Part shown: piece by piece, positions 12,501 to 61,249 of the stretch
How positions within the stretch are numbered: position 1 is the stretch's first letter
Layout: every line of letters starts with the position of its first letter
NCBI GenBank assembly: GCA_903813345.2
Contig: CAIIXF020000004.1
Coordinates: 7,151,525 to 7,215,524, forward strand
Reading direction: 5' to 3'
Source: Owenia fusiformis
Lineage: Eukaryota > Annelida > Polychaeta > Sabellida > Oweniidae
Length of the DNA stretch: 64,000 bases
Position numbers and translations under genes: made by a program
Notes under the pieces: generated by a model
Told to the model about the DNA's origin: nothing
Databases searched by the model: none
Seen by the model: the letters and a program-made list of their open reading frames with translations, nothing else

Positions 12501-15500
12501 AGTGATAAGTTGCTTGTTATAGCGCATAACTGAAAGACTGGATACGTAGGTGAGTATTTAGCATGTGTTGCTCGAGATAATAACTCACAAGTATCTAGCA
12601 TTTTTTGCTTAAGAAGACGGGACACATAGTTGAGTACTAGTATTTGTAATTGCTAAGTATGGTAAGATTCATGAATATTTTTTTGATTGTGATAGCGCAA
12701 GACTTATCAAGGAAAGAAACGCAGGTTAAGCTAAAAGATGTTTTTATCATTCATTTTCTATTTGCCATGACTTTAAAAACTATTTGAGAGATTTAAAAAA
12801 AGATTTTTGAAAGAAAAGTTGTCATCTTTTCAAATCTCAAATATTCAAATATCCCTCCGATTTTCAAAAAAAGATTTAACCATCAAATATTCCACCATAC
12901 ATTTCAAAAAGATTATCTTTTTAACACCAATGCTATGATTGAACAAAGGACACACTATTTCAATAATAAAATGCCATGTCTAATGTGCCACTTCAATATT
13001 TTAGCATATTAAAATCAAAAATATTTTGCAACACCAGGTTAAAAGGAAGAATGTATCATGTTTCAAATATTATTGTACCATTGGTTACTAGGAGAACTAA
13101 CATTTTGAAATGCATCTTTCTCTGAACCATTTTCATGTGTCGATGAATTCCTTTCTCGCCTATTCTTGAACCGATTTTCCTAATTTTCAGCAAAAACACG
13201 TGAGGATGAATGCTTTTGGTATAAATTAGTATCGCATATTAAAAGATACGTGTGATCTCTAAAAGTTAGTTTTAAATAAATTCTCGATTTTTCGAACAAA
13301 AAGTACTTCAAAAATACTTTTTGAAATTAAAAAAAGTTTTACATATCACACTTTGATAACATTGGGTAAGACTACAGCATAAGCCAACGTGGTTTAAGCT
13401 AGCTTTATATAGGGCCTTTAAAATCACAAAACAATAGTCGATTTGGTGAGGTCTGTAAACATTCAGTGCTTGTGATAGCCTGGGATAACTGACAAAATAA
13501 GACAACGAATTAACACAGTAAACCCTGTAAAGTGAAACACCTCGGTTAGTGGAACACTTTTCAGAGTCCCAATACCAAATGATTTAATGTTATAATGAAG
13601 TAGAACACCTCCCAAGTGGAACACCTTCAGAGATGTTCCACGTAGACAGGTTTTACTTTAATATTGTCATGGTAAATATTTTACAGGCAAGTGTATGGGA
13701 GGTACTGTGTGGAACGATGTCCTGGTTGTATGTGATGATGCCAAGCAGGTTCCCGATTGCGACCCACTCAGCTGTGCCGGTAAGTTTCTTTATTTCAAGT
13801 CGAGGGTGAACAACCTTACAACATCGTTGAAACACGCAAAAGTGGGACAATATTCATTGTCAAAGATACGATTTTCTATTTGCGTTAGTCATTCAATTCA
13901 TTCGTGGGTGTTTGCATTGAATACGAGAACGGCTTTTAAAGCATGTCATGGGGCCATCGACACAATTAGTCTAATGCCTCCACAACGTTTTACAGACAAA
14001 TGTTTTTAGACTATTTATCGTCATTCACTAAACTTTAGACGAGGAGATTCTATCGTGATTGAATTTTAAAATGTTATATAAACTGCTCTGTCACTCTTTC
14101 TGTTCTCCTTGTTGGCCATGAAAGTGAAATGAATAACATGTTGATGTTTACAAATAAATGAATTTGCTGAAAATGCACAAAAGAATTAATAAAAAAAATC
14201 CTTGTAGTCCCAAAGAGAACCAATGCCGAGTGCGCCGATGCCCAGCCCACTGGTACCACATGTTGTGTTGGACAGAACAGAGAGGATGGTAAGAATGGAT
14301 ACGAGCCAGTCTTCACCGCTGGATCTGGACCTGAATTCTACATCCGTGGATCCGATCGTGAGGAACAGAAGTGTCCATTCGGCCAGGTCTTCGTGCTTGA
14401 ATCGTGCTGCTGCGAATTCGAATGTGAGTACTTGCCAGAAGCACCATAAGTAACAAGGGCTCTGGCCGTTGGGGGAGTACTGGTTAAAATATTACAAAAC
14501 ATAATAGGGAGTGTGGCGAAGTTAAGTCTCTCTATCGTTTACAAAACTTGAAAACAAATATAGTTTAAAATATTAATTTATTAAAGAAAAGTTAAAGTCC
14601 AAAAATTTCATTTCAATCGGCTACTTACAGTTTTTGGTTTGTCCCTAGTTCACGCTACGAGGTTCTGAGGCTTCAATGCCAAAAAGCCTCTTTTATATCT
14701 TAATTTTGAGGTGGGCAGAGCCGAAATAAGAGGTCTTATCCAATAAAATATTAGGAAATCCTATTAACTAAAATTGACCTTAAAATAAATGTTTAATTTT
14801 ATAAAAAGTCAATAATAAATGGTGATGATTTTCTGCCCACAAAGCTTAAATGTTTACTGAGAATTTGAGAATTTGGCAGATTTTGGTGAGAAAGGAATGT
14901 CTAGACAAAACCTCTGAGCCTCGTCTCGTGAACTCTGGATGTTTAATCTAATTATCTAATTTAATTCATTATCTAATTTATGTCCGAAACACATATTTAT
15001 AAGTTAATTTACCCCCTAAAAAATATACAATTATTCGTAAAATGTGATGTAGATAATAAAGGTATAAACATTTGCAAAGCATATACAGCAGTATTGATGT
15101 TTTGGTCAGTTTTTACTCCAGGACCTTAAATGTAATCGCTTTTTACTTTGTTTATCAGAAATTTGCAGTCTTCAAGATGATGCCAAAAACTATAGAAACT
15201 TATAAACATCTTAACTAAACATTACAAAATTTCACATCAGTTGACTTCATATATCATTGTCTGTCACTCATATCTCAAGAATAACCCTTTCATTTGATTG
15301 GCTCTAGAAATATTCCATACCTAAAACTGCTCTAATATGATGATAAAACCTGGAAATCAAGCTGTTGATGTTGTGAAATATCACACTGGGTTCAAAGATC
15401 ACTAAAACAACTGTTATAATACAAATATAAACTCAAAACAAATATAAAATCAAAACAACGCAATAATTATAAACATGAGTAACAGAAAAAGATCATTATG

Positions 15501-16998
15501 ACATCAACTGATGTGAAGTGAAATAAGGCCATAAGAAGTAGATTCTTTGTTTTGCGTCCTGGCAAAATCCAAATCATGCAAGGGTACAAGGAAAACAAAC
15601 ACAAACTCAAGAAAAAACACAAACTTGTTTGCTGAGAAATGTATACATTTATGGACGTAAAAGGGGATGGCATACCAATTTGCAGTGATTATAACCACAT
15701 ATCTATACATTTTATACAATATATTTAAACATAGCTATTATTCAAGGGTAAAAAAAAAAAAAATACACAATGTATGCCAAACTTATTAATAACACTGTCA
15801 ATTTTGAAGCACATCAAATTATCCGCCATTTTGTCTATTCTGATTGAACAAGATGTGATGATACTTTCAGACCCTTGTGATTGCTATTTGGATGTGTTTG
15901 TTTTTTCTGATTTACTCAAAATCGTGCAAGCAAGGGGACGCAAAACAAAGAATCTACTTCTTATGGCCTAAGTATAGACTGACCAACGAGATCAGCTATG
16001 ACTTCGTCACAATAGCGCCTCGATTTAGTTAATATATGATTCACCCAAGTACATCGATCGTAATGAAATATTTCAGTCGTCCCAGTCGCTCCATGTGACG
16101 ATACCTCAAGCTTTTACTTTGCCGACCCCGATGGTGATGGCTGCTGTACCTATGTACAATGCTTTGCCAACAGAACCGGTTATGATACCCTCGAGTGCAT
16201 GCCACCAAGCGTCTGGAATGACGAAGAAAAGGCCTGTGATATCGTCAACAACGTCATGGACTGTATGAATGTCAACTGTGGACTTGAGATGACCGACCCA
16301 CCTTGTGATGGTAGTGGACAAGGTTTGAACGTTATTTTCTACTTTGCGATTTTATGAGTTTAAAAGTGTTAAAACGACTCTCGTTCAGCTCGAAGATTCA
16401 GCTTCAATAGGTCAAAATTGGTCACGTGATGAAACCCATCGATCATCGACTTTAATGGTCAAAGAGTTCCATGGTCAAATTTCGATTATTTTCATCAAGG
16501 TACAAAGGTAAGCCACCATCTTCTTTTGACTGAGCAATTGTAGTGAAAGAAATTGGACGAGTTTTTTATCACAAGGCCTAACAAATGTGTATCCAATGGA
16601 TAATACGCCATTTATATACGGAGAATTTTCATTTTCAAAAGTCATTTAGTTCACGATTGCACTGAACGAAATATAAATGTTATTCAGGAACTTGTTGCCG
16701 TGCCGGGAACTATTACTCGGAGGGTGGAGACAACACTCAATACATCATTACCGATGGTCCAGGTACGAACAAACACATTAAAAACGTGTAACCTAACTTC
16801 CCTATTACGTGTAAATTAACTTCCATAATAAGAATGGGGATCAGAGGGCCATTGTTTGACGCTAGGATTTAACCCTTGTTAACTGATATTATAGGAGCCA
16901 GTGACAGAGCCGAGTGCTGCCCATTGAATATGGATGGTGAGCAGTTGGTCTTCAACTTTGACGAAGAAGTATGCTGCTGCGAACTTCCATCATTTTAA
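9575..16998 (+). CDS. Secreted Cys-rich protein with two CBM14-like chitin-binding domains (7 coding exons, 302 aa)
   Basis: Exons: 9575-9644, 11859-11963, 13687-13779, 14208-14423, 16077-16322, 16688-16762, 16895-16998. All internal introns are phase 1 and all junctions are GT-AG. The ATG is preceded by an acceptor at 9564, so a non-coding first exon lies upstream. The first 14 residues (MLPLVLLFATALAS) form a signal peptide. Residues about 24-85 and 165-225 are peritrophin-A/CBM14-like: spaced Cys, a YFADPDGDGCCTYVQC block and a PPSVWNDEEKACD block in the second, and TVWNDVLVVCDD in the first. Each is followed by a Cys-rich module starting with CC and ending in CCCE (about 90-162 and 243-302), so the protein looks like a duplicated two-module unit. 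CBM14 binds chitin, so an extracellular role in mucus, cuticle, gut lining or shell matrix is an inference. No catalytic domain is seen. Confidence 0.85.
9871..11678. repeat. Inverted terminal motifs GTCACATTTGCTCT bounding part of intron 1
   Basis: GTCACATTTGCTCT at 9871-9884 is matched by AGAGCAAATGTGAC at 11665-11678. Near the left end lie CGACCGTACGTCG and several GCCGTACGGC motifs (to about 10170), as in the MITE at 2676-3053 and at 48657. It may be one 1.8-kb non-autonomous element or two independent solo ends. The interval otherwise holds nothing recognisable. Confidence 0.4.
11939..12560 (+). repeat. Tandem array of about 12 copies of the exon 2 end plus its splice donor
   Basis: The 3' end of exon 2 (ACTGGATACGTAG) and the intron start (GTGAGTGATAAGTTGCTTG) repeat about every 53-58 bp. 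I count 12 copies of GGATACGTAGGTGAGT, the first being the real exon end at 11963. Spacer variants (AACTGAACAAG or AACTGAAAG, with CGAATA, CGCATA or GTATA) recur with a higher-order period of 320 bp, so a six-unit block was itself duplicated. Every unit retains a consensus GTGAGT donor. Confidence 0.9.
13514..13660. mobile_element. Short MITE-like element (CAGTAAAACCTGT family)
   Basis: One end reads CAGTAAACCCTGTAAAGTG and the other AGACAGGTTTTACTT, in inverse. The inside repeats GGAACAC motifs. Related sequence appears at 27855-27950, 46968-47150, 51460-51560, 56790-57100 and 59300-59345, always in introns. It sits just upstream of exon 3 of the CBM14 gene. Confidence 0.5.
15524..15970. mobile_element. 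MITE-like element in intron 4 with about 35-bp inverted ends
   Basis: The left end contains GGCCATAAGAAGTAGATTC and TTTGTTTTGCGTCC. The right end (about 15937-15970) is its near-perfect inverse. There is no coding potential. The rest of the intron (14424-16076) holds nothing recognisable. Confidence 0.6.
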
Positions 16999-32632: not shown

Positions 32633-33834
32633 GGAATTGTGTACATGAAGGACTTGATGGAACCTATGTAGAGGGCCCTGTAGAATGAATGTGACATGAA
32701 TACCACATAGTGATGATAAAATATTCAAAATCAACTATGGCATAACAAAATGGGGTAATTCATGACCAAAATGGTTTGTTTTGTTCGGCCTGCATTCAAC
32801 TGCGTTGCATGTTAAACAAGCTATAATAACCTGAGAATGTTTGACGTAAATGTCGGTCCCGGGGTACCTATACCTCCTTCACGGAAATAAAGATATATCA
32901 AAATATATTACATGTTTTGTTTTCAAATCTTCAGAGTTGATAGATAATTGAATGATGTATCACTGGTAAGAAAATCGAAGGTATTGGTCTATAATAAGCA
33001 TCCGTGTAAAAAAGCGTCCATTACTTATTGATCACCCCTCGTAAGTACATGTACTTGGAATTTTTTGACACTGCCACGAATCTTTGAGACATGAAGGCAG
33101 ATCTGCAATTTTGAAAAGAAGACCGCTCAATTTTCTAGGCTTTTATATTTTCTAAAGGAAAATTACCACTCAATTATTAATCTGGGTACACCAGCGCTCC
33201 TTTTGTTCAAAATTGCAGGATTTAGAACGTGTTTGGAATGAGTAACGTCATCTGAAAAAAACACATGGTCATCAAAATGGTAAAAAGTGCAGTTTGACCT
33301 TATGGGACAATAAGTACTTGTACTTGTAATTTTTTCACATCATGCCACGAATCTTGGAGACATTAAGATATTGAGATGCCAGGCATCGGCTAATGGATCC
33401 AGAGACTCCCGTCATAAACGTCTTGACGTCGGGTCTCTGATTTTACAGAATGTGTTTAGCTTAAATCGTATCAAATAAAATGTCTTGTATGATAATGTGG
33501 TTTTCATTTTAACCATGGCCACGGAAAAACAAAAGATATGCGAATAAATATAATTAGGTACGTTAATAAGGGTTGAACAAAAATTACAAATGGTGAATTC
33601 AAAATCATTCAATCAAGTTATCTGTATTATAAGCTACTTGTGGAACAAATATATCCAAGTATATCCTGATTTTTTAATTATTTTGCAACTTTTGTGAAAT
33701 AAAACTTTTCCCATGATAATTCAAGTTTAAACATTCACTAATAGATAGATGTCACTACTTACATTGTTTATGAAAAGATTGTGGTTGGGACTGTGGTGGA
33801 TTATTTGTTTTTTTGTGACTGAAACCTATAACAG

Positions 33835-34075
33835 GGGTAGATCTGGGAACCAACAATCGGAAGGGGGCAAATTTCAAGTCTGAGAAAAAATTGGGCCCCT
33901 AACACCAAAACGTGGGCCCAAATTTTGATATTTTGAGGCCGATTTTCTTCAAAATTTGGCCTGAAATTAAAAAATAAGGCCTTAAAAGTAAAGACCAAAA
34001 GGCCCACCTTTTGGGGCTTTAATGCCTCTTTTTGGCCCGAAATTTTATTAGGGCCCATTTTTTTCTGGGCCCACC
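33835..34075. repeat. Dispersed repeat of the GGGCGGATCTG family
   Basis: GGGTAGATCTGGGAACCAAC, then GTGGGCCCAAATTTTG and TTAAAAAATAAGGCC, parallels 841-1140 along most of its length. It directly abuts the 12-bp satellite at 34083. 33044-33834 holds nothing recognisable. Confidence 0.65.
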
Positions 34076-34082
34076 CGGTAGG

Positions 34083-35536
34083 ATATATAGTATAGTATAT
34101 AGTATAGTATATAGTATAGTATAGTATAGTATATAGTATAGTATATAGTATAGTATATAGTATAGTATAGAGTATAGTATATAGTATAGTATATAGTATA
34201 GTATATAGTATAGTATATAGTATAGTATATAGTATAGTATATAGTATAGTATATAGTATAGTATATAGTATAGTATATAGTATAGTATATAGTATAGTAT
34301 ATAGTATAGTATATAGTATAGTATATAGTATAGTATAGAGTATAGTATAGTATAGTATATAGTATAGTATATAGTATAGTATAGAGTATAGTATAGAGTA
34401 TAGTATAGAGTATAGTATAGAGTATAGTATAGAGTATAGTATAGAGTATAGTATAGAGTATAGTATAGAGTATAGTATAGAGTATAGTATAGAGTATAGT
34501 ATAGAGTATAGTATAGAGTATAGTATAGAGTATAGTATAGAGTATAGTATAGAGTATAGTATAGAGTATAGTATAGAGTATAGTATATAGTATAGTATAG
34601 AGTATAGTATAGAGTATAGTATATAGTATAGTATATAGTATAGTATATAGTATAGTATATAGTATAGTATATAGTATAGTATAGAGTATAGTATATAGTA
34701 TAGTATATAGTATAGTATAGAGTATAGTATAGAGTATAGTATAGAGTATAGTATAGAGTATAGTATAGAGTATAGTATAGAGTATAGTATAGAGTATAGT
34801 ATAGAGTATAGTATAGAGTATAGTATAGAGTATAGTATATAGTATAGTATAGAGTATAGTATAGAGTATAGTATAGAGTATAGTATAGAGTATAGTATAG
34901 AGTATAGTATAGAGTATAGTATATAGTATAGTATATAGTATAGTATATAGTATAGTATATAGTATAGTATAGTATAGTATAGAGTATAGTATATAGTATA
35001 GTATATAGTATAGTATAGAGTATAGTATAGAGTATAGTATAGAGTATAGTATAGAGTATAGTATAGAGTATAGTATATAGTATAGTATAGAGTATAGTAT
35101 AGAGTATAGTATAGAGTATAGTATAGAGTATAGTATAGAGTATAGTATAGAGTATAGTATAGAGTATAGTATAGAGTATAGTATAGAGTATAGTATAGTA
35201 TAGTATATAGTATAGTATATAGTATAGTATATAGTATAGTATATAGTATAGTATATAGTATAGTATATAGTATAGTATATAGTATAGTATATAGTATAGT
35301 ATATAGTATAGTATATAGTATAGTATATAGTATAGTATATAGTATAGTATATAGTATAGTATATAGTATAGTATATAGTATAGTATATAGTATAGTATAT
35401 AGTATAGTATATAGTATAGTATATAGTATAGTATATAGTATAGTATATAGTATAGTATATAGTATAGTGTATAGTATATAATATAGTATATAGTATATAG
35501 TATATAGTATATAGTATATAGTATAGTATAGTATAG
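34083..35536. repeat. 1.45-kb satellite of a 12-bp unit (TATAGTATATAG / TATAGTATAGAG)
   Basis: It is almost pure 12-bp tandem repeat. Two unit variants, ending in ATAT or AGAG, occur in blocks: mostly ATAT at 34085-34325, AGAG at 34370-34590, mixed to 35190, then ATAT to 35470. Because 12 is a multiple of 3 and the minus strand lacks stops, two overlapping 500-codon frames of Tyr/Ile/Leu/Thr appear there. They are artefacts of composition. Confidence 0.95.
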
Positions 35537-35639
35537 CACTTCAAATCATTCAATAACGTTTTTATGGTGTTATCTTGGGCCAATACATTTTACTAAGGCG
35601 ATAATTTCGGAATATATTTCGGAAATATTTTGTATTTTC

Positions 35640-40658: not shown

Positions 40659-41190
40659 AACGTAACAGTGATTGGTTAATTTTAATGACATAAGGGTTGG
40701 GTCATAAGCTCTCAATCCTGTAGGAATGGCATCTATCTGTGTGTGTTTATTGAACAAATTACTTAACATTCAGGCTTGACCGGTATTTGCTTTACTTGGT
40801 TGCTATAACAACCAATAGCTCTGCCCCATTACCCCTACCAGACCCTCAACCGCTACAAGTTACAGTCTTTGAGTATACCAACAATGTGTCATAGGTGGCT
40901 AGACTCTACAGTCAAACGCCGTGATTGGCAAATTTATGAAGCCTTTGCCAAGACCTGCTTACAGTCTAGTTACTTCAATCTAGGACTATCGCCATAGCTG
41001 CAATCGATCTCAGAATAAACGTAAACACATCTTTTTATTTTGCTTCAGTCATGTCAGCCTTCAAAGTCGCTTTAGACCTCAATGCATTCAAAAATACCCA
41101 TATTTCCATCGCCATTTTTACACTCTATTTAGCCTATTCCTGTTTTAGTCACTACTAATGAGTAATTTGAATTTTGTTTCAGAGATCGCC

Positions 41191-42042
41191 ATGTCTCCAG
41201 TTAGTATCTTGTTGTGTATGAGCTTTTTTGGATGTACTTTCGGTCTCTCTATTGAAGAAGCTGCACTGTTTCAGAACGATGGTACAGTCGGGCAATATCA
41301 CGGACTCTCAGGATTCGTCAATATCACTGACAACGGGGACACTTGGACACTAATCAGTAATGGCGTACCTGATCATGATACAGGTGACTTCCCGATTGCC
41401 GGTTCAAACCCTAATGAGATATCCACTCAGACCCATGAATATGAAATTCCTAAAAATCCAAATATTGCTTCTGAGGCCACATGTCTGTCTAGGGGCGTGA
41501 TAGGAATTGCAAAAAATGGTGTCGCAATTTTCAACCCATTTACGATACAAGGATGTAATGCGGTTGAGGGAAGTGGCGCGGAGGAATTCGATGAATGTAA
41601 TGCCCACCCCGCTCCAAATGGTGCGTACCATTACCACATGGTTCCGAACTGTATAGTAGACGGCACGAACGATCAGTTTATCGGTGTTGCCCTTGACGGA
41701 TTTCCCATCTATGGACCACTGAACTCAGCCGGTCAAAACATAACATCTGCCGATTTGGACGAATGCCACGGAGAAACTGTGAACGGAGCCTATCGCTACA
41801 GAGTGACCCACGATTATCCATACTATCTCGGTTGTTACAAGGGTGGGTATGTTTCCAGTATGGGTGGCCCTGCAATGATGCGCAAGAAGCGCCAGACCCC
41901 TCCACCAACGTGCTCATTTGCAAACCAAGCCACATTGGAGACTAGCCCGTGTTATACTTCGGACGGAAACAAGGCACCTTTCATTTTCCAAACTGGACTC
42001 ATCGCTACAGGTTTCCTCATTAGCTTTTTCAATATCCATTAA
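41191..42042 (+). CDS. Secreted or GPI-anchored YHYH-domain protein (283 aa from this Met)
   Basis: The coding part lies in one exon. An acceptor (TTTTGTTTCAG) ends 8 bp before the Met at 41191, so an upstream non-coding exon is likely; an earlier in-frame Met at 41158 lies inside the inferred intron. Residues 1-19 are a hydrophobic signal peptide. The GAYHYH signature is at residues 144-149 and DGFPIYGP at 169-176, the two marks of the YHYH family, whose biochemical role is unknown. A furin-like RKKR lies at 231-234, followed by a Pro-rich link, and the chain ends in a hydrophobic segment of about 18 residues. That fits a GPI-anchor signal. The gene converges on the VHL-like gene, with 748 bp between stop codons. 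Confidence 0.85.
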   Translation: MSPVSILLCMSFFGCTFGLSIEEAALFQNDGTVGQYHGLSGFVNITDNGDTWTLISNGVPDHDTGDFPIAGSNPNEISTQTHEYEIPKNPNIASEATCLSRGVIGIAKNGVAIFNPFTIQGCNAVEGSGAEEFDECNAHPAPNGAYHYHMVPNCIVDGTNDQFIGVALDGFPIYGPLNSAGQNITSADLDECHGETVNGAYRYRVTHDYPYYLGCYKGGYVSSMGGPAMMRKKRQTPPPTCSFANQATLETSPCYTSDGNKAPFIFQTGLIATGFLISFFNIH

Positions 42043-42790: not shown

Positions 42791-45700
42791 TTACTGATCC
42801 AGTCCAGTGATCCATACAGCCTTCTCGTTGACCTTGGGCCAATAGACACACTCTCCGGCAAGAGTGTAGACCTTACCAGCCTCGTCAGTGACCACCCATG
42901 GGTGTTGAGTGTTAGTGTTCATTCTAATGCTGTTGCCTAAAAGTGGACGAAAATAGCTCACGTGATGTGGTTTGGCCAATCAGAAATTTGGACACATGAG
43001 AAATATGTTGAATACTGTCATTCTTATCCCGTTGCCTAAATTTGACGAAAATAGGTCACGTGATGTGGTTTTGAGCAATCAGAATGTGTAATTAAAGATT
43101 CAATATAGCAATTTGGTTCAAAAAATCATGGCTTCTCATTATACAATGCTTACCAGAGGCGAGTTTCCAGTTGCCTTGCATGTTTCCTTGGTAATCCACC
43201 CAGTGAAGGACGACGGTCATCTTGGAGAGGTTTCTGAAAGTGAGGGTGACGGCTTGTCCACTGCCAGATTTGATACCAGTTGGCTTCTTACAAGGAGTGG
43301 CTGTAAATGTTGAGTTTTTTTCAGTATAGTTTAAGAAATTCAAGATACAATATGAGCAACTCAGAGAGTTTATAACATAAATCTCTCTACTCCTCAAAGC
43401 TACCTGGAAACCCATGATCTCAATACTGAAAAGATAATCATGTACAATTTCTAACCCCAAGATCTCAGTATGATATTCCTAATAGGCCTACTCATTTAAA
43501 CATGAGATTTACAAAAGAATTCGTTGACTTAGTGGCACGAGTTTCGGATCTGAAACTTTTACAGATCCAAAGCCATCTTTTAGAAATCAAAGCGCACTTA
43601 CAGGAAATTCCGATCTCCTTCTCGATATGGTCGACAACAACACCAGCGCCATCTTTAATTGTGTCAATGGCGCCACCAGCAGCGGGCTTCATCTTCTCCA
43701 AAGTCTCGTCTGCAACATAAATACCCGGATGTTGATCCATCATATATATACAATGAATTTACCTAGGAGGAGTTTCAAATTAGCAGGTACATTTGGAAAC
43801 TGCAGTATATGAATAATATGTTACTGTATAGTACCAATACACGGATAGATAAACCATGACATCTCATTTCTTGAGTTTCAGGTGAAACAGAAAGATGCTA
43901 TGAGTATCAGAATGGAATAACCTTGTTTAAACAAAACTTACTGAGGATATCAGTTGAGGCTTCAATGAGGGCATCAAGTCCGTTCTTGGCGTGTCCGAGG
44001 AGTTCCTTGCCATGATCACCGAGTTGCTGTAGAATACGAAGATAGATATTAACGTGACCTGATAAACTGGGTTTTGATTTTGCAGTATCTTGATATATTA
44101 TTGTTACTGACGATTATCGACTATAGACCACGGGCTATAGACGAAAAGCTTGGGAGGTGGATATTTTCCTTAGCTTGATATGACGGTCAACTTTGGGGAG
44201 GATGTATTCCTTCTTAACTCAATGTGTGTACATGTATTTCTTACATTGCTGTTATCATGTGACCCACAAGTTTGGGGAGGACGTATTCCTCCTTACCTTG
44301 ATGTTATCCTCAAGTTTGGCGAGTGAGTATATGTATTCCTTACCTTGATGTTACCTGGAAGGATGTACAGGTGTATTCCTTACCTTGATATGACCGTCAA
44401 GTTTGGGGAGGATCTTGTCAACATGTGGCTTAGCTTTGTCCCACAGATCACCAGCTCCCTTTGAGACGTCATTAACGATTCCGTTGACTCCCTACAGAAT
44501 ATACACAACTTAACTAGCCTACAATATACCATGGGCTTTCATCTAGTTGAAAGCCCATGAATATACGGAATATGTTTCATACAGGATATGATTCCTTAAA
44601 ACAATAGTAGTATACATCAAATATATTTATCTCAATGGTACATACCATGATTACAAGTAGTTTTCTTTTTGGGCTTCTTAATCAAAATATAAAGAAACCT
44701 ATTAGCTATTGAAAGACGAAATTTTTAATATAAAGCTCCAAGATGGCCGCTTCCAAAGCTGTTTTAACGGTGTCCATCTGTGAAAAGAATATTCAAACTT
44801 TAAAATGTTGCGCTAATTAGTAGATGTATTATGTAAATTTTTAAATAAAATCATCTTACGGAGACGATTTTGTCAATATGTGGCTTGAAAGCATCACCGA
44901 GAACTTGTCCAAGGGCCTTGACGGCATCAATGATTCTCTTGTTAACCTGTCGGTCTTCGGGGACAGAGAACTCACTGAAGATATCACGGGTGTGGCGGGC
45001 ATGGAACTCTGCGTATTAGGAAAAATAGTAAATACATTGTCACAATCATGAAATACATTGTCGTGATATTGTCATAGTGACAACCTTGTCTCAATTTTTA
45101 AATGCATTTTCACAATCATATAATACATTGTTGTGATATTGTCATGGTGACAACCTTGTCTCAATTTTTAAATGCATTTTCACAATCATAAAATACATTG
45201 CCGTGATATTGTCATGGCGACAACCGTGTCTCAATTTGTAAATGTATTTTCACAATCATAAAATACAATCTCCAAACCACAACGTTGTCAATTAAAACCT
45301 ATTTATACTTGGAATTAAAAAATTAGAAATACCTAATAAGGTCAGACATTTATGACTTTGGTTAAATTTTATGTAATGTCGTTGGGTTTTACCAAACATT
45401 TCGAAGGAAGTGTATGTTACAACCGGCTTTCAATTGATCAAATATTGATTACATTTTTGTCAATCTGGCAAAATAATCGAAGTACTACCTACCAGCGACC
45501 TCTTCGAGTTTCTTTTGTGTCTCCTCAGTGCTTTTGGTGACGAAGTCAAGTCCGTAAACCTCAGAGAGAATCTACGAATGAAAATAGGCTATAAGTTAAA
45601 TAAAATTTAAGATTGGAAATATCCAATTCTTAAGAATTGAAAAAGAAGACGTCAAATTTTGTCCGATTATCATTTAATAAAATCAGAACTGTTTGACATA

Positions 45701-47470
45701 CCGTAAAATTATTTTTACAAAGTTGTGTCCAACTCGTCTCTAGTCTCATAAAACACTGGTACTCACCTGGTTATTGAGACTTTACGTCCAAGGACTCCAA
45801 TAATAGAGAGAGAATTTGCTGAAGAGAGGAATTCTCACTCGATTATTGGAACTGATGGATATAATTGCTCGCCTCTGCCTAGATTTTCAGTAACTGGATG
45901 TTACTATTAGCATACTGGTAAAATATTTGGATACAAATTAAATCAACCTACTTCTTAATGAAAACTATGAAAATGAAAATTGCCTACAAGTTCATCCATT
46001 TTGTTATAAAGACGTATAACCAGGTTGGGGCCAGTGATAAAAGATACAAAAAGGGAGTAAGGTTAATCTTACTACAGACATTAATCATAAATACCTCCTG
46101 TACGATTTCCATTGAAGCATCAGTGACCTCCTTGGCGATCTGGATCTTGGTTGAGAGGATCTCTCTGAAGATCTCAGTCACCTCATTAACGAACTGTTGG
46201 TTCTCGCTCTTCTGTTCCTCGACATCTCGTTTGCCGATGACGACATCGACGAGACCTAAATGAATAGAAATATCGGTGTAATCTATTTTATAAGATAACG
46301 ATATCCAGATGTGCAAATGGGTCCAAACCTGAAAAATAATGTCCATCTATTGTTCGACGCATTTCGCTTTCTGTCCACGGGGTTGAGAAGAAGAAGATCT
46401 TGGACACTCTGCGATATCGGGTTATAAACGAAAACCTTTTAATTTTACACATTGCTTAGAGATAAAATTTAGCTAAATACAGTCGCAAAAAATCAAAAGC
46501 CTAACCCCTTGAATAGGAAAAGTGACTTTCAGTCACCACGAAAGATGGAAGCCCCTTGGCTGTCAGAGATTTGGATTGATAGAGGGAAATTTAGCGAACA
46601 TAGGAAAGACGACATATTCGCCTTGACAGCCAACCAATATTTTATGATTCCCGTCTTAAACGCATTAAAGTATGCACTTGATATACAGGTAGTTGATCAT
46701 TGGTGAACTTCAACTTTGTATAAATTTGGTGCTGAAAGAATTCGAAAGGCTTTACCTCCCATAGCTTTGTCCAGGATTGCTTCTCCCTTTTTGCCGAGGT
46801 CGTCTAGGAGATCGTTGAGCCATTTGCTGGTGGCATCTGTGGCTTTGCCAATGTTGTCTCCGATTGTGTTAACATCTAAAACAAAACATCAACGTTAAAC
46901 TCCTTTGCATTAGTCTGGGAATTTTTGGATAGTGTAACTGTGAATAGCCCCCCCCGGTATCTATTTATTTTATTTCAATTACAGTTCAAACTGTCTTATC
47001 CGAACCCCTCTGGGACCAGATAAAAGTGTTCGGATTAGTAGGTGTTCACATTTCAAGGTTTTATGAATATTTATGTCAGGTTTGAAAACATATTCTCAAT
47101 GAGAGGTGTTCGCATTAGAGAGGTGTTCGGATGTACATGTTTCACGTACATAGAAAGATTGGGTCAAAAATGGGCCGGAACACTAACATCAGCTGACTCA
47201 CATATACTCTTATTTGAAAAACAAATATGATCTCAGTGTTATGAGAAACAGGTAAAATAAGGTTTGTGGATTTATGAATGCATGTTCAATTCACAAATCG
47301 AGTCAAATGATGAAGGTTTTTATTATTTTTAGAGACATGGATATTACGATACAACATGCATTCATCTTACTTTTCTCGAGTTGAGCGAGTTTCTCCTCAG
47401 TGGTTAGCTCCTTGGTTTCGTCCTGGGCAAGGGCCCCTAGTACGAGCAATGACAGGATCAATAACTTCAT
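42791..47470 (-). CDS. Secreted helical protein with C-terminal VHL beta-like domain (10 coding exons, 400 aa)
   Basis: Minus-strand exons: 47470-47371, 46875-46756, 46255-46095, 45571-45493, 45008-44860, 44491-44384, 44026-43942, 43709-43602, 43300-43154, 42936-42791. They total 1203 nt and all phases agree. A signal peptide (MKLLILSLLVLGALA) starts the protein. Residues about 17-300 are rich in Lys, Glu, Asp and Ala with heptad-like hydrophobics, reading as amphipathic helices; related PHIDKIV and PHVDKIL segments lie in consecutive exons. Residues about 319-390 resemble the pVHL beta domain: FRNLS, VVLHWVDYQG, a L..G turn, then HPW. Trp337, His364 and Trp366 align with pVHL Trp88, His115 and Trp117; the Tyr98 position is not Tyr. 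Two Cys (307, 382) could pair. pVHL is cytosolic and binds hydroxyproline in HIF; a secreted relative with no alpha domain suggests a different role. Function unknown. Confidence 0.8.
42930..43085. repeat. Tandem duplication at the last intron's acceptor region
   Basis: GTTGCCTAAA...GACGAAAATAG, TCACGTGATGTGGTTT and CAATCAGAA occur twice (42931-42985 and 43029-43085). The first copy contains the real acceptor at 42937. Both keep an E-box CACGTG and an inverted CCAAT. Confidence 0.7.
44160..44400 (-). repeat. Degenerate tandem copies of an exon end and splice donor (VHL-like gene)
   Basis: The real exon end at 44384 (CTTGACGGTCATATCAAG|GTAAGGAATAC on minus, in two parts) is followed by about four diverged copies containing CCCCAAACTTG, ATCAAG and GTAAGGAATAC-type segments. 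Spacing is about 40-100 bp. Confidence 0.6.
44735..44779 (-). pseudogene. Possible decayed or optional exon in the VHL-like gene
   Basis: A good acceptor (TTTTCACAG) precedes an open frame (MDTVKTALEAAIL...) that fits the helical style of the neighbours. No donor GT is present before the frame ends at TAG. Flanking exons join in phase without it. Confidence 0.3.
45025..45275. repeat. Three tandem copies of an about 88-bp intronic unit
   Basis: The unit holds GATATTGTCATRGTGACAAC and CTTGTCTCAATTT, with TTTTCACAATCAT. Copies lie near 45060, 45130 and 45205, just past the exon at 45008-44860. Confidence 0.7.
45775..45830 (-). pseudogene. Decayed duplicate of exon 4 of the VHL-like gene
   Basis: On minus, an acceptor-like TCTCTTCAG is followed by ATTCTCTCT (as in exon 4, ILS...) and GGAGTCCTTGGACG. 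An in-frame TAA comes before a consensus donor (CAG|GTGAGTACC) at about 45774. Splicing it in would truncate the protein. Confidence 0.35.
46968..47150. mobile_element. CAGTAAAACCTGT-family fragment in intron 1 of the VHL-like gene
   Basis: AAACTGTCTTATCCGAACCCC and GTGTTCGGATTAGTAGGTG match the element at 27855. The small open frame here is incidental. Confidence 0.4.
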
Positions 47471-59449: not shown

Positions 59450-59483
59450 CTGTAACATTGAACAAGACACAAAGTGATAAATA

Positions 59484-61249
59484 TTGCATCCTGGAAATGT
59501 TGTTGAGTTGAAATCTGAAGTATGCAAAGCCCCAACACTAGCAATTCCAAACCCAAAGCTTCCATACGAGCTACATACAGACACTAGTTCGAGTGGTCTT
59601 GGTGCTCCTTTATACCAAAAGCAAGATGATGTTTTGAAACCTGTAGCATTCGCTAGTCGTAGCCTGTCCAAATCTGAGAAAAACTATCCAGTGCACAAAC
59701 TCGAAATTTTGGCCTTGAAGTGGTCAGTCAATGATAAGTTTCATGACTATCTATATGGTGCCGAGTTTACAGTGAAAACTGACAACAATTCCCTGACATA
59801 TGTTCTCACATCAGCTAAGTTAGATGCCACTGGACATCAATGGCTCTCAGAATTGTCCTTGTACAACTTTACACTAAAATATACAAGTGGTAAGTCAAAT
59901 GTAGATGCAGACACCTTGTCATGAATGCATGAAAGAAATGAAACCGTTAAACAGTTTGTTGAGCGGTGTGATCCTTCTGTCATCATCAATGCTGTTTTGG
60001 AAGGGGACGGGTTCCCACCATGTCACAATTCTGTTGAGGTTGAGGAATACCTAGATTTTCTTGAAAGTTTACCTTCAATGGGTAAAGATGTATCTCATAC
60101 CCAGGATTTAGACAGTGATATTGGTAGGGTTAAATACATCATAAAAAATGATGTGAGTCTAAATGCTTTCCAAAGGAAAGCAGAACGTCCAAATGTCATA
60201 GCAAGGTTAAGACACAGGGGAAGTCTGATCGTTCAATCAGGTATTCTGTACAAGGTTTCTAAACTTGGTGGTAAAACATACAAAAGGATAGTTCTTCCCC
60301 AGGTTCTCCACAATGTTGTATTGAAATCCGTCCATGATGAGATGGGCCATTTTGGTATAGAACGCACATTAGATCTTGTTCAGAAAAGAATGTACTGGCC
60401 TCGAATGATAAATGATGTCACAGATTATGTCAAACTATGTAAGAACTGCATTTTGCGTAAAACAAAGATTCCCAACGCAGTTCCAATGGAGCATCTTTCG
60501 TCTAACTGTCCAATGGATTTAGTCTGCATTGATTTTTTGACAGTTGACCCTGATGACTTAAATAAAACAAACATTTTGGTGATAACCAATCATTTTACAA
60601 GGTTTTCAAAAGCAATTGTCACTAAAACACAAACCGCAAAGACTGTTCCTGATATCCTTTTTAGAGATTTTTTCTTGAATTTTGGTTTGCCCCGTCGTCT
60701 CCATTCTGATCGTGGTGCCAATTTTACTGGTAAAATAATCAAAGAATTGTGTAGATTGACAGGTGTCAAAAAGACTTTCACAACCCCGATCCACAAGGGA
60801 ATGGGCAAACGGAATGTTTTAACTGCACATTGTTGAATATGATCGGTACTTTGGATGATGTCAAGAAATCCAGGTAGTCCCAACATGTAAAGATTCTATG
60901 TCATGCAAATAACTGCTCAAAGAATGACTCAACTGGGTTTACTCCATTTGAACTCATGTTTGGTCGTCGACCTATCTTACCTATTGACATTCTTCTAGAA
61001 ATAAATTCCAGTGAACATTTGGAGTCAATGCACAAATATGTGTCCAATCTAAAATCTGACCTAAAAACTGCATATGATGTAGTGAATGGAAATGTCAGTA
61101 AAAGAAACAAACTCAATAAGGATAGGTATGATAAGAAAGTAAAACAGTTACCACTAGAGCTAAATGATAGCGTCCTTGTCCAAAATGTTGGCTTAAGAGG
61201 GAAAAGACAAGAACACAAATGTGTACAAAATGTCCCCACCAAGTGGTGA
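59484..61249 (+). pseudogene. Decayed Gypsy-type LTR retrotransposon pol fragment (RNase H, integrase)
   Basis: Reading on +, an RNase H domain (59484-59924, with HTDTSSSGLGA and DNNSLTYVL) is followed after an in-frame TGA by an H2C2 zinc finger and integrase core (59925-60836, with GHFGIERTL, CKNC and a SDRGANF block). A frameshift/deletion near 60800 breaks the core before its last acidic residue. The frame resumes at 60956 with an integrase C-terminal stretch. The gag, protease and RT parts and both LTRs are absent. It lies antisense inside the first visible COG6 intron, starting only 35 bp upstream of the exon at 59449, so it cannot act on its own. Confidence 0.85.

Follow-up and report, generated by a model that had tools for sequence, protein, structure and literature searches.

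The beta domain of the von Hippel-Lindau protein (pVHL) serves hydroxyproline sensing inside the cell, for oxygen control. The question raised by the locus described here is what such a domain might do at the end of a protein that appears to be exported. The locus occupies positions 42791..47470, minus strand, of a 64,000-nucleotide stretch of the genome of the annelid Owenia fusiformis (contig CAIIXF020000004.1, positions 7,151,525 to 7,215,524), which we refer to as the window. From its sequence we predict a protein whose C-terminal part almost certainly has the VHL beta fold and belongs to the Pfam VHL family (PF01847). The best reading, in our view, is an extracellular binding module of the hydroxyproline type with altered contacts, and we propose hydroxyproline itself as the ligand tentatively, at somewhat less than even confidence.

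The predicted gene and its protein

We rebuilt the gene independently from the sequence and recovered the exon chain proposed in an earlier note on this DNA, with 10 exons on the minus strand (47470..42791) encoding 400 amino acids and a stop codon. Its parts, in window positions, are the following.

47371..47470, minus strand: exon 1, with the ATG, the putative signal peptide MKLLILSLLVLGALA (by eye) and the start of the mature chain; donor gtaagatg
46756..46875, minus strand: exon 2, helical segment; GT-AG, phase 1
46095..46255, minus strand: exon 3, helical segment
45493..45571, minus strand: exon 4, helical segment
44860..45008, minus strand: exon 5, helical segment
44384..44491, minus strand: exon 6, helical segment
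43942..44026, minus strand: exon 7, helical segment
43602..43709, minus strand: exon 8, end of the helical segment
43154..43300, minus strand: exon 9, with the Cys307 arm and the N-terminal half of the VHL beta domain, including W337 (VHL W88) and W348
42791..42936, minus strand: exon 10, with the C-terminal half of the VHL beta domain, including T360 (VHL S111), H364 (H115), W366 (W117) and Cys382, and with the stop codon
42663..42668, minus strand: candidate polyadenylation signal AATAAA, starting about 120 bases past the stop

The splice model is a prediction based on sequence, and the gene may have further or alternative exons. All nine introns are GT-AG, the phases join across all nine joins, and once joined the exons read open in one frame only, the other two having 9 and 33 stops. 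GC content is 0.50 in the exons versus 0.34 in the introns of this model. The signal-peptide exon and the VHL exons might belong to separate genes, a concern that the short exons (79-161 bases) and a splice model drawn from sequence make reasonable to raise. However, the 400 codons are open through nine GT-AG, in-phase joins, and none of 20,000 random chains was open when minus-strand pieces of the window of the same lengths were joined with no splice-site condition, so we rejected a gene-model artefact. The cysteine pair described below also speaks for export of the VHL half, and we regard separate genes as very improbable. The AATAAA at 42668-42663 is weak evidence because the same hexamer occurs 179 times in the window. 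An Rfam scan of the 64-kb window gave no matches.

Residues 1-15 resemble a classical signal peptide by eye, with cleavage between MKLLILSLLVLGALA and the following Q, and the protein is predicted to be exported with about 385 mature residues. Residues 34-300 (about 267) form an amphipathic helix as judged by periodicity, which peaks at 3.67 residues (z 11 against shuffled sequences), while 3.5 gives z 8. Since the peak is at 3.67 rather than 3.5, an 11-residue (11/3) repeat fits better than a heptad coiled coil, and we rejected the latter as a label for this segment. The order of signal peptide, long helical segment and C-terminal VHL beta domain given in the earlier note is thus found again, the first by eye, the second by periodicity and the third by Pfam.

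The length of the helical segment and its 11/3 periodicity suggest another view of the protein, in which it would be mainly an apolipoprotein-like amphipathic helical protein of lipids or surfaces and the VHL domain an accessory tail. The Pfam Apolipoprotein A1/A4/E model (PF01442) gives a weak match in the same direction, but at 19.7 bits it is far under the cut-off of 90, and it is the VHL domain that is the common part of the paralogues described below. We consider this view improbable, though the helical part may have relatives in the genome as well.

The predicted protein has two cysteines only, C307 and C382. Both recur across the family, and a disulfide between them is therefore likely. 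The frame stops 18 residues after Cys382 and contains no pVHL-type alpha domain, in agreement with the earlier remark that the elongin-binding alpha domain is missing. A loose elongin box pattern found nothing in the window, but it found nothing in three VHL-like genes of the same genome (L033-L035) either, so it is uninformative.

Two other features adjoin or lie within the gene. An uninterrupted 297-residue frame at 41149-42042 on the plus strand, which contains a YHYH domain (PF14240, 86.6 bits, cut-off 25), adjoins the end of the VHL gene on the opposite strand. The intron between exons 4 and 5 holds a direct repeat of about 80 bases in 3-4 copies, seen on reading the sequence at about 45020-45270 of the plus strand.

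The VHL beta domain and its relatives

Against the Pfam VHL model the C-terminal 97 residues score 33.1 bits and the whole protein 29.4 (cut-off 21), bearing out the resemblance to the pVHL beta domain that had been noticed by eye. A profile of 13 domains from the same genome (A1) matched 24 distinct VHL sequences in the PDB with E values of 5e-5 to 3.5e-4, and the next match was one unrelated chain at 0.66. With no PDB match of note apart from VHL for this family profile, we rejected chance resemblance. The same profile also matched a profile of the bacterial relatives described below (E 1.9e-17, probability 98.9). The structural model is that of a bacterial domain, from Nostoc, to which the window domain is tied by profiles. 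Built with 15 bacterial rows in the alignment, it has a pLDDT of 88 and seven strands, and in a Foldseek search with it VHL structures took all of the best 50 rows (E 1e-6 to 7.5e-6, TM score by query 0.65-0.79).

Searching all 525 contigs of the assembly (498 Mb), with four domains and the Pfam model as queries, we found, besides the window gene, at least 16 further places with a VHL domain of the window type, as well as the three VHL-like genes, one of which (L035) matches human VHL in the PDB at 47 bits. The figure of 16, for which an array on contig C9 was counted once and one weak place with two stops was left out, is a lower bound because genome searches score the best candidates only. 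The last-strand cysteine (GxCxYxP type) is present by alignment in all 15 fuller domains and the N-terminal arm cysteine in 14 of them, L032 being without the arm. Neither human VHL nor L033-L035 has a cysteine at those places in the aligned stretches. The arm cysteine is least certain in L027, where it was read in an open frame some 5 kb ahead of the VHL exon. Both L027 and L030 score above the Pfam VHL cut-off of 21, at 25.3 and 29.1 bits.

The array on C9 (L031, C9:2725500-2735499), beside which L036 lies, consists of seven same-strand pieces resembling the VHL beta domain, and H115 is missing from three; it may represent a protein with several VHL domains that is undergoing change or decay. 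In an unrooted tree, 15 animal domains of the secreted type fall on one side (support 89/90) and the bacterial and intracellular VHL rows on the other. The same tree has four long end branches, and 13 of its 31 inner branches are left open.

Several paralogues have other extracellular-type domains beside the VHL exon. Their exon chains were built only in part, so that neighbouring domains here means exons on the same strand, and we infer that in each case these would form one transcript. Astacin (PF01400) exons precede the VHL exon at four places (L025, L024 and twice in L029). In L025 the end of the astacin (42.5 bits, cut-off 22.5) shares a single exon with a Thr-Pro linker and the cysteine arm, and an in-phase splice to the VHL exon is possible. 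The astacin exons of L024 score 79.0 bits against the same cut-off, and L029 has two astacin-VHL genes in tandem, the astacin exons of the second scoring 58.5 bits and those of the first being alike by comparison. C-type lectin exons stand before the VHL exon in L037 (55.6 bits, cut-off 22.6), with one after it at 20.7, below the cut-off; by comparison with L037, lectin-like exons flank the VHL exon of L030 on both sides. Upstream of the L044 VHL domain (22.7 bits) there are two SUEL-lectin-like exon pieces at 25.4 and 28.9 bits, below the cut-off of 31.4. The VHL exon of L045 is a near-copy of that of L044, and the 3 kb read at that locus showed no lectin piece. The paralogue loci contain signal-peptide-like starts, none of which could be assigned to a gene.

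Relatives were also found in bacteria. A search of plasmid records gave three matches (E 2e-3, 0.2 and 8), of which the first two were confirmed by Pfam as small Calothrix and Nostoc proteins with PF01847 (37.6 and 31.3 bits). A second plasmid search, with the L027 domain as query, gave matches at E 4-9 only, and a scan of prokaryote genomes with an animal sub-alignment (A2) gave 23 stretches, none of them a relative. Scanning prokaryote genomes by patterns gave 18 loci (L049-L066). Seven are stand-alone VHL-beta proteins (L049-L055), from Nostoc, Calothrix, Rhizonema, Limnohabitans and a Comamonadaceae metagenome-assembled genome. The others (L056-L066) are VHL-like stretches within long proteins of Verrucomicrobia, Planctomycetes, Armatimonadetes and one further bacterial metagenome-assembled genome.

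Four of the long proteins were run through Pfam, and all four have DPPIV_N and Peptidase_S9 domains. VHL was detected by Pfam in two (32.4 and 35.8 bits) and, at E 0.01, not in L062 and L063; the six-frame search scores the VHL of L062 at 31.0 bits. VHL matches above the cut-off were found in 11 of 194 genomes from the phylum of L056. There are 12 such matches, and all but one are in open frames 779-943 residues long. All six of these loci that were read (L071-L076) have the motif GGSAGG and sequence like the S9 proteins. Known members of the DPP-IV-like S9 peptidases cut after proline.

The hydroxyproline pocket and the proposed function

In the passage of PMC9528729 that describes it, the hydroxyproline site of VHL consists of W88, Y98, H110, S111, H115 and W117; S111 and H115 hold the hydroxyl group there, and Y98 binds the carbonyl. 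The window protein has W337, T360, H364 and W366 for W88, S111 (Thr here), H115 and W117. Three of these (W337, H364 and W366) had already been placed at Trp88, His115 and Trp117 by the earlier note, exactly as in the rebuilt protein and the alignment, and the loss of Tyr98 noted there is likewise seen, with N347 at that place and W348 one residue later.

In the bacterial alignment W88, Y98, S/T111, H115 and W117 are each present in all 21 rows, in reading which it should be kept in mind that L049-L066 were fetched by patterns, one of them including W88. In the six rows that were retrieved with the Pfam model (L071-L076, the L074 row being read by eye from its frame), the same set is present in 6/6. 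The DPP-IV-like S9 peptidases (L056-L066, L071-L076) have the VHL beta domain as an insertion, its hydroxyproline pocket complete. L050, L059 and L060 (copies, near-copies or cut by N) are left out of the bacterial alignments. In the animal family, W88 is present in 18 of the 20 rows that reach it, S/T111 in 21/22 and H115 in 18/22, and position 117 is aromatic in 21/22 (13 F, 7 W, 1 Y). The 22 animal rows include L045, L046 (stop in frame) and five pieces of the L031 array, 4/7 of these being without H115, and leave out C2:17300388-17300649 and C4:4459222, which have stops inside.

We compared the five pocket columns with random columns, using columns filled in 75% of rows (90% in an earlier, smaller count). 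They are more conserved, with p 0.015 for the 22 animal rows, 2e-5 for the 21 bacterial rows and 0.0005 for the six Pfam-found bacterial rows. For W88, S111 and H115 alone, the corresponding values are 0.003, 0.001 and 0.016.

The gene anatomy, the homology of the domain, the family, the same-strand neighbouring domains and the conservation of the columns are established at the level of sequence. On these we base the following proposal. The window gene would give an exported protein whose C-terminus is an extracellular VHL beta sandwich, held by a disulfide between C307 in the N-terminal arm and C382 in the last strand. The old pocket of W337, T360, H364 and W366 would bind an extracellular protein ligand, with hydroxyproline, or a residue hydroxylated in a similar way, as the most probable target. 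The part of the pocket for the hydroxyl on the proline ring would be retained and the contacts to the peptide backbone changed, W348, beside the lost Tyr98 site, altering the hold on the backbone. The amphipathic helical part might serve to multimerise the protein or to anchor it on a surface of lipid or mucus; with the protein clustered or surface-bound in this way, weak single sites could act together. In the paralogues the same module may hold astacin proteases or lectins on hydroxylated substrates.

Several results weigh against this proposal. Y98 is present in 1/21 animal rows (L024, by alignment), a contact thus lost family-wide. H115 is missing in 4 of 22 domain pieces, three in one tandem array and one (L046) in a stop-containing frame. 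The p values given above are too strong because the test ignores the relatedness of rows and the burial of residues, and W88 and W117 may be kept for folding. Protease and lectin neighbours are also compatible with binding of another ligand. Three domains counted as family members by similarity to other members do not reach the VHL cut-off of 21, the astacin-linked domain of L025 scoring 16.6 and L031b 18.1, with no VHL match for L031a. A phmmer search of the PDB with the window domain alone gave chance matches, mostly antibody chains, and no VHL, so the family profile was needed.

The loss of Tyr98, together with the Trp at position 99 in 11/21 animal rows (the window protein included), also suits a different explanation, to which we give a little under an even chance: the VHL beta fold may have been kept as an extracellular binding or spacer module that does not read hydroxyproline. 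It would then bind some other ligand (a glycan, an unmodified peptide or a lipid-bound partner), for which, or for folding, the W, T and H would have been conserved. The lectin-type neighbours at L037, L030 and (below the Pfam cut-off) L044 fit this explanation, as do the four pieces without H115. However, the polar S/T111 and H115, the hydroxyl holders in VHL (PMC9528729), are kept in most domains, and the bacterial relatives keep the whole pocket set, also within DPP-IV-like peptidases. The hydroxyproline reading raised in the earlier note stands in part: W88, S/T111, H115 and an aromatic at 117 are conserved above other columns both in bacterial relatives and in those of this genome, and some of the latter adjoin protease or lectin exons, but Tyr98 is lost across the animal family and 4/22 pieces are without H115.

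Should hydroxyproline binding hold, the VHL beta fold would be a general hydroxyproline reader, beyond intracellular oxygen control. Nature would then offer small modules, held by a disulfide, that bind hydroxyproline, and the origin of VHL could be put to a clear test. Hydroxyproline is characteristic of collagen and of the wall glycoproteins of plants and algae. A wider and in our judgement unlikely possibility is that VHL beta domains form a general extracellular hydroxyproline-reading system in bacteria and animals. The bacterial ones would direct exported prolyl peptidases towards proteins rich in hydroxyproline; in this animal the domain would have been copied onto astacins, lectins and a helical surface protein that recognise own or foreign collagen-like proteins and hydroxyproline-rich glycoproteins; and intracellular oxygen-sensing pVHL would be a single specialised offshoot of a more ancient fold for binding hydroxyproline.

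Elsewhere in the window we noted a long simple repeat with several frames open (33801-35540), frames resembling retroelement RNase H and integrase by eye (59481-61249, plus strand) and Cys-rich frames resembling chitin-binding (peritrophin) domains by eye (13662-16357, plus strand).

Comparison with known systems

A bacterial secreted VHL beta protein is already described, in Litorilituus sediminis, in the part of PMC9002001 that concerns it. The literature searched gave no account of an animal extracellular VHL beta family, nor of VHL beta with astacin or S9 peptidases. Animal extracellular-type VHL beta modules beside proteases or lectins, and intact-pocket VHL beta in bacterial DPP-IV-like peptidases, were thus not found in print. 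The sea anemone matrisome study PMC12549020 may already list an animal extracellular VHL domain (IPR036208, "von Hippel-Lindau domain" in search listings, words not confirmed in its text), and the passage concerned in PMC12403961 treats only the HIF pathway.

The window domain shares with the pVHL beta domain a beta-sandwich, as judged by profile, the matched W88, S/T111, H115 and W117, and a gapless distance of 27 residues from W88 to H115. It differs in the signal-peptide-like start of its protein, the cysteine pair, the lost Tyr98 and the Trp at 99, and, having no alpha domain, the protein is also without the elongin C site. The bacterial secreted VHL-beta proteins (Nostoc, Calothrix, Limnohabitans and others) are likewise exported-looking; they are small, have the pocket residues and, in six stand-alone rows aligned, a cysteine pair. 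In contrast to the window protein they are without a long helical segment of its type, they keep Tyr98, and their second cysteine is elsewhere in the alignment. The bacterial DPP-IV-like S9 peptidases also have the VHL beta domain in an exported-looking protein, there inserted beside a proline-type peptidase, but they are enzymes, whereas the window protein has no peptidase domain. The same-genome astacins with a C-terminal VHL beta domain (L024, L025 and twice in L029) share the domain subfamily of the window protein, have both the arm and the last-strand cysteine and carry VHL as the last domain; they have a protease where the window gene has its helical segment.

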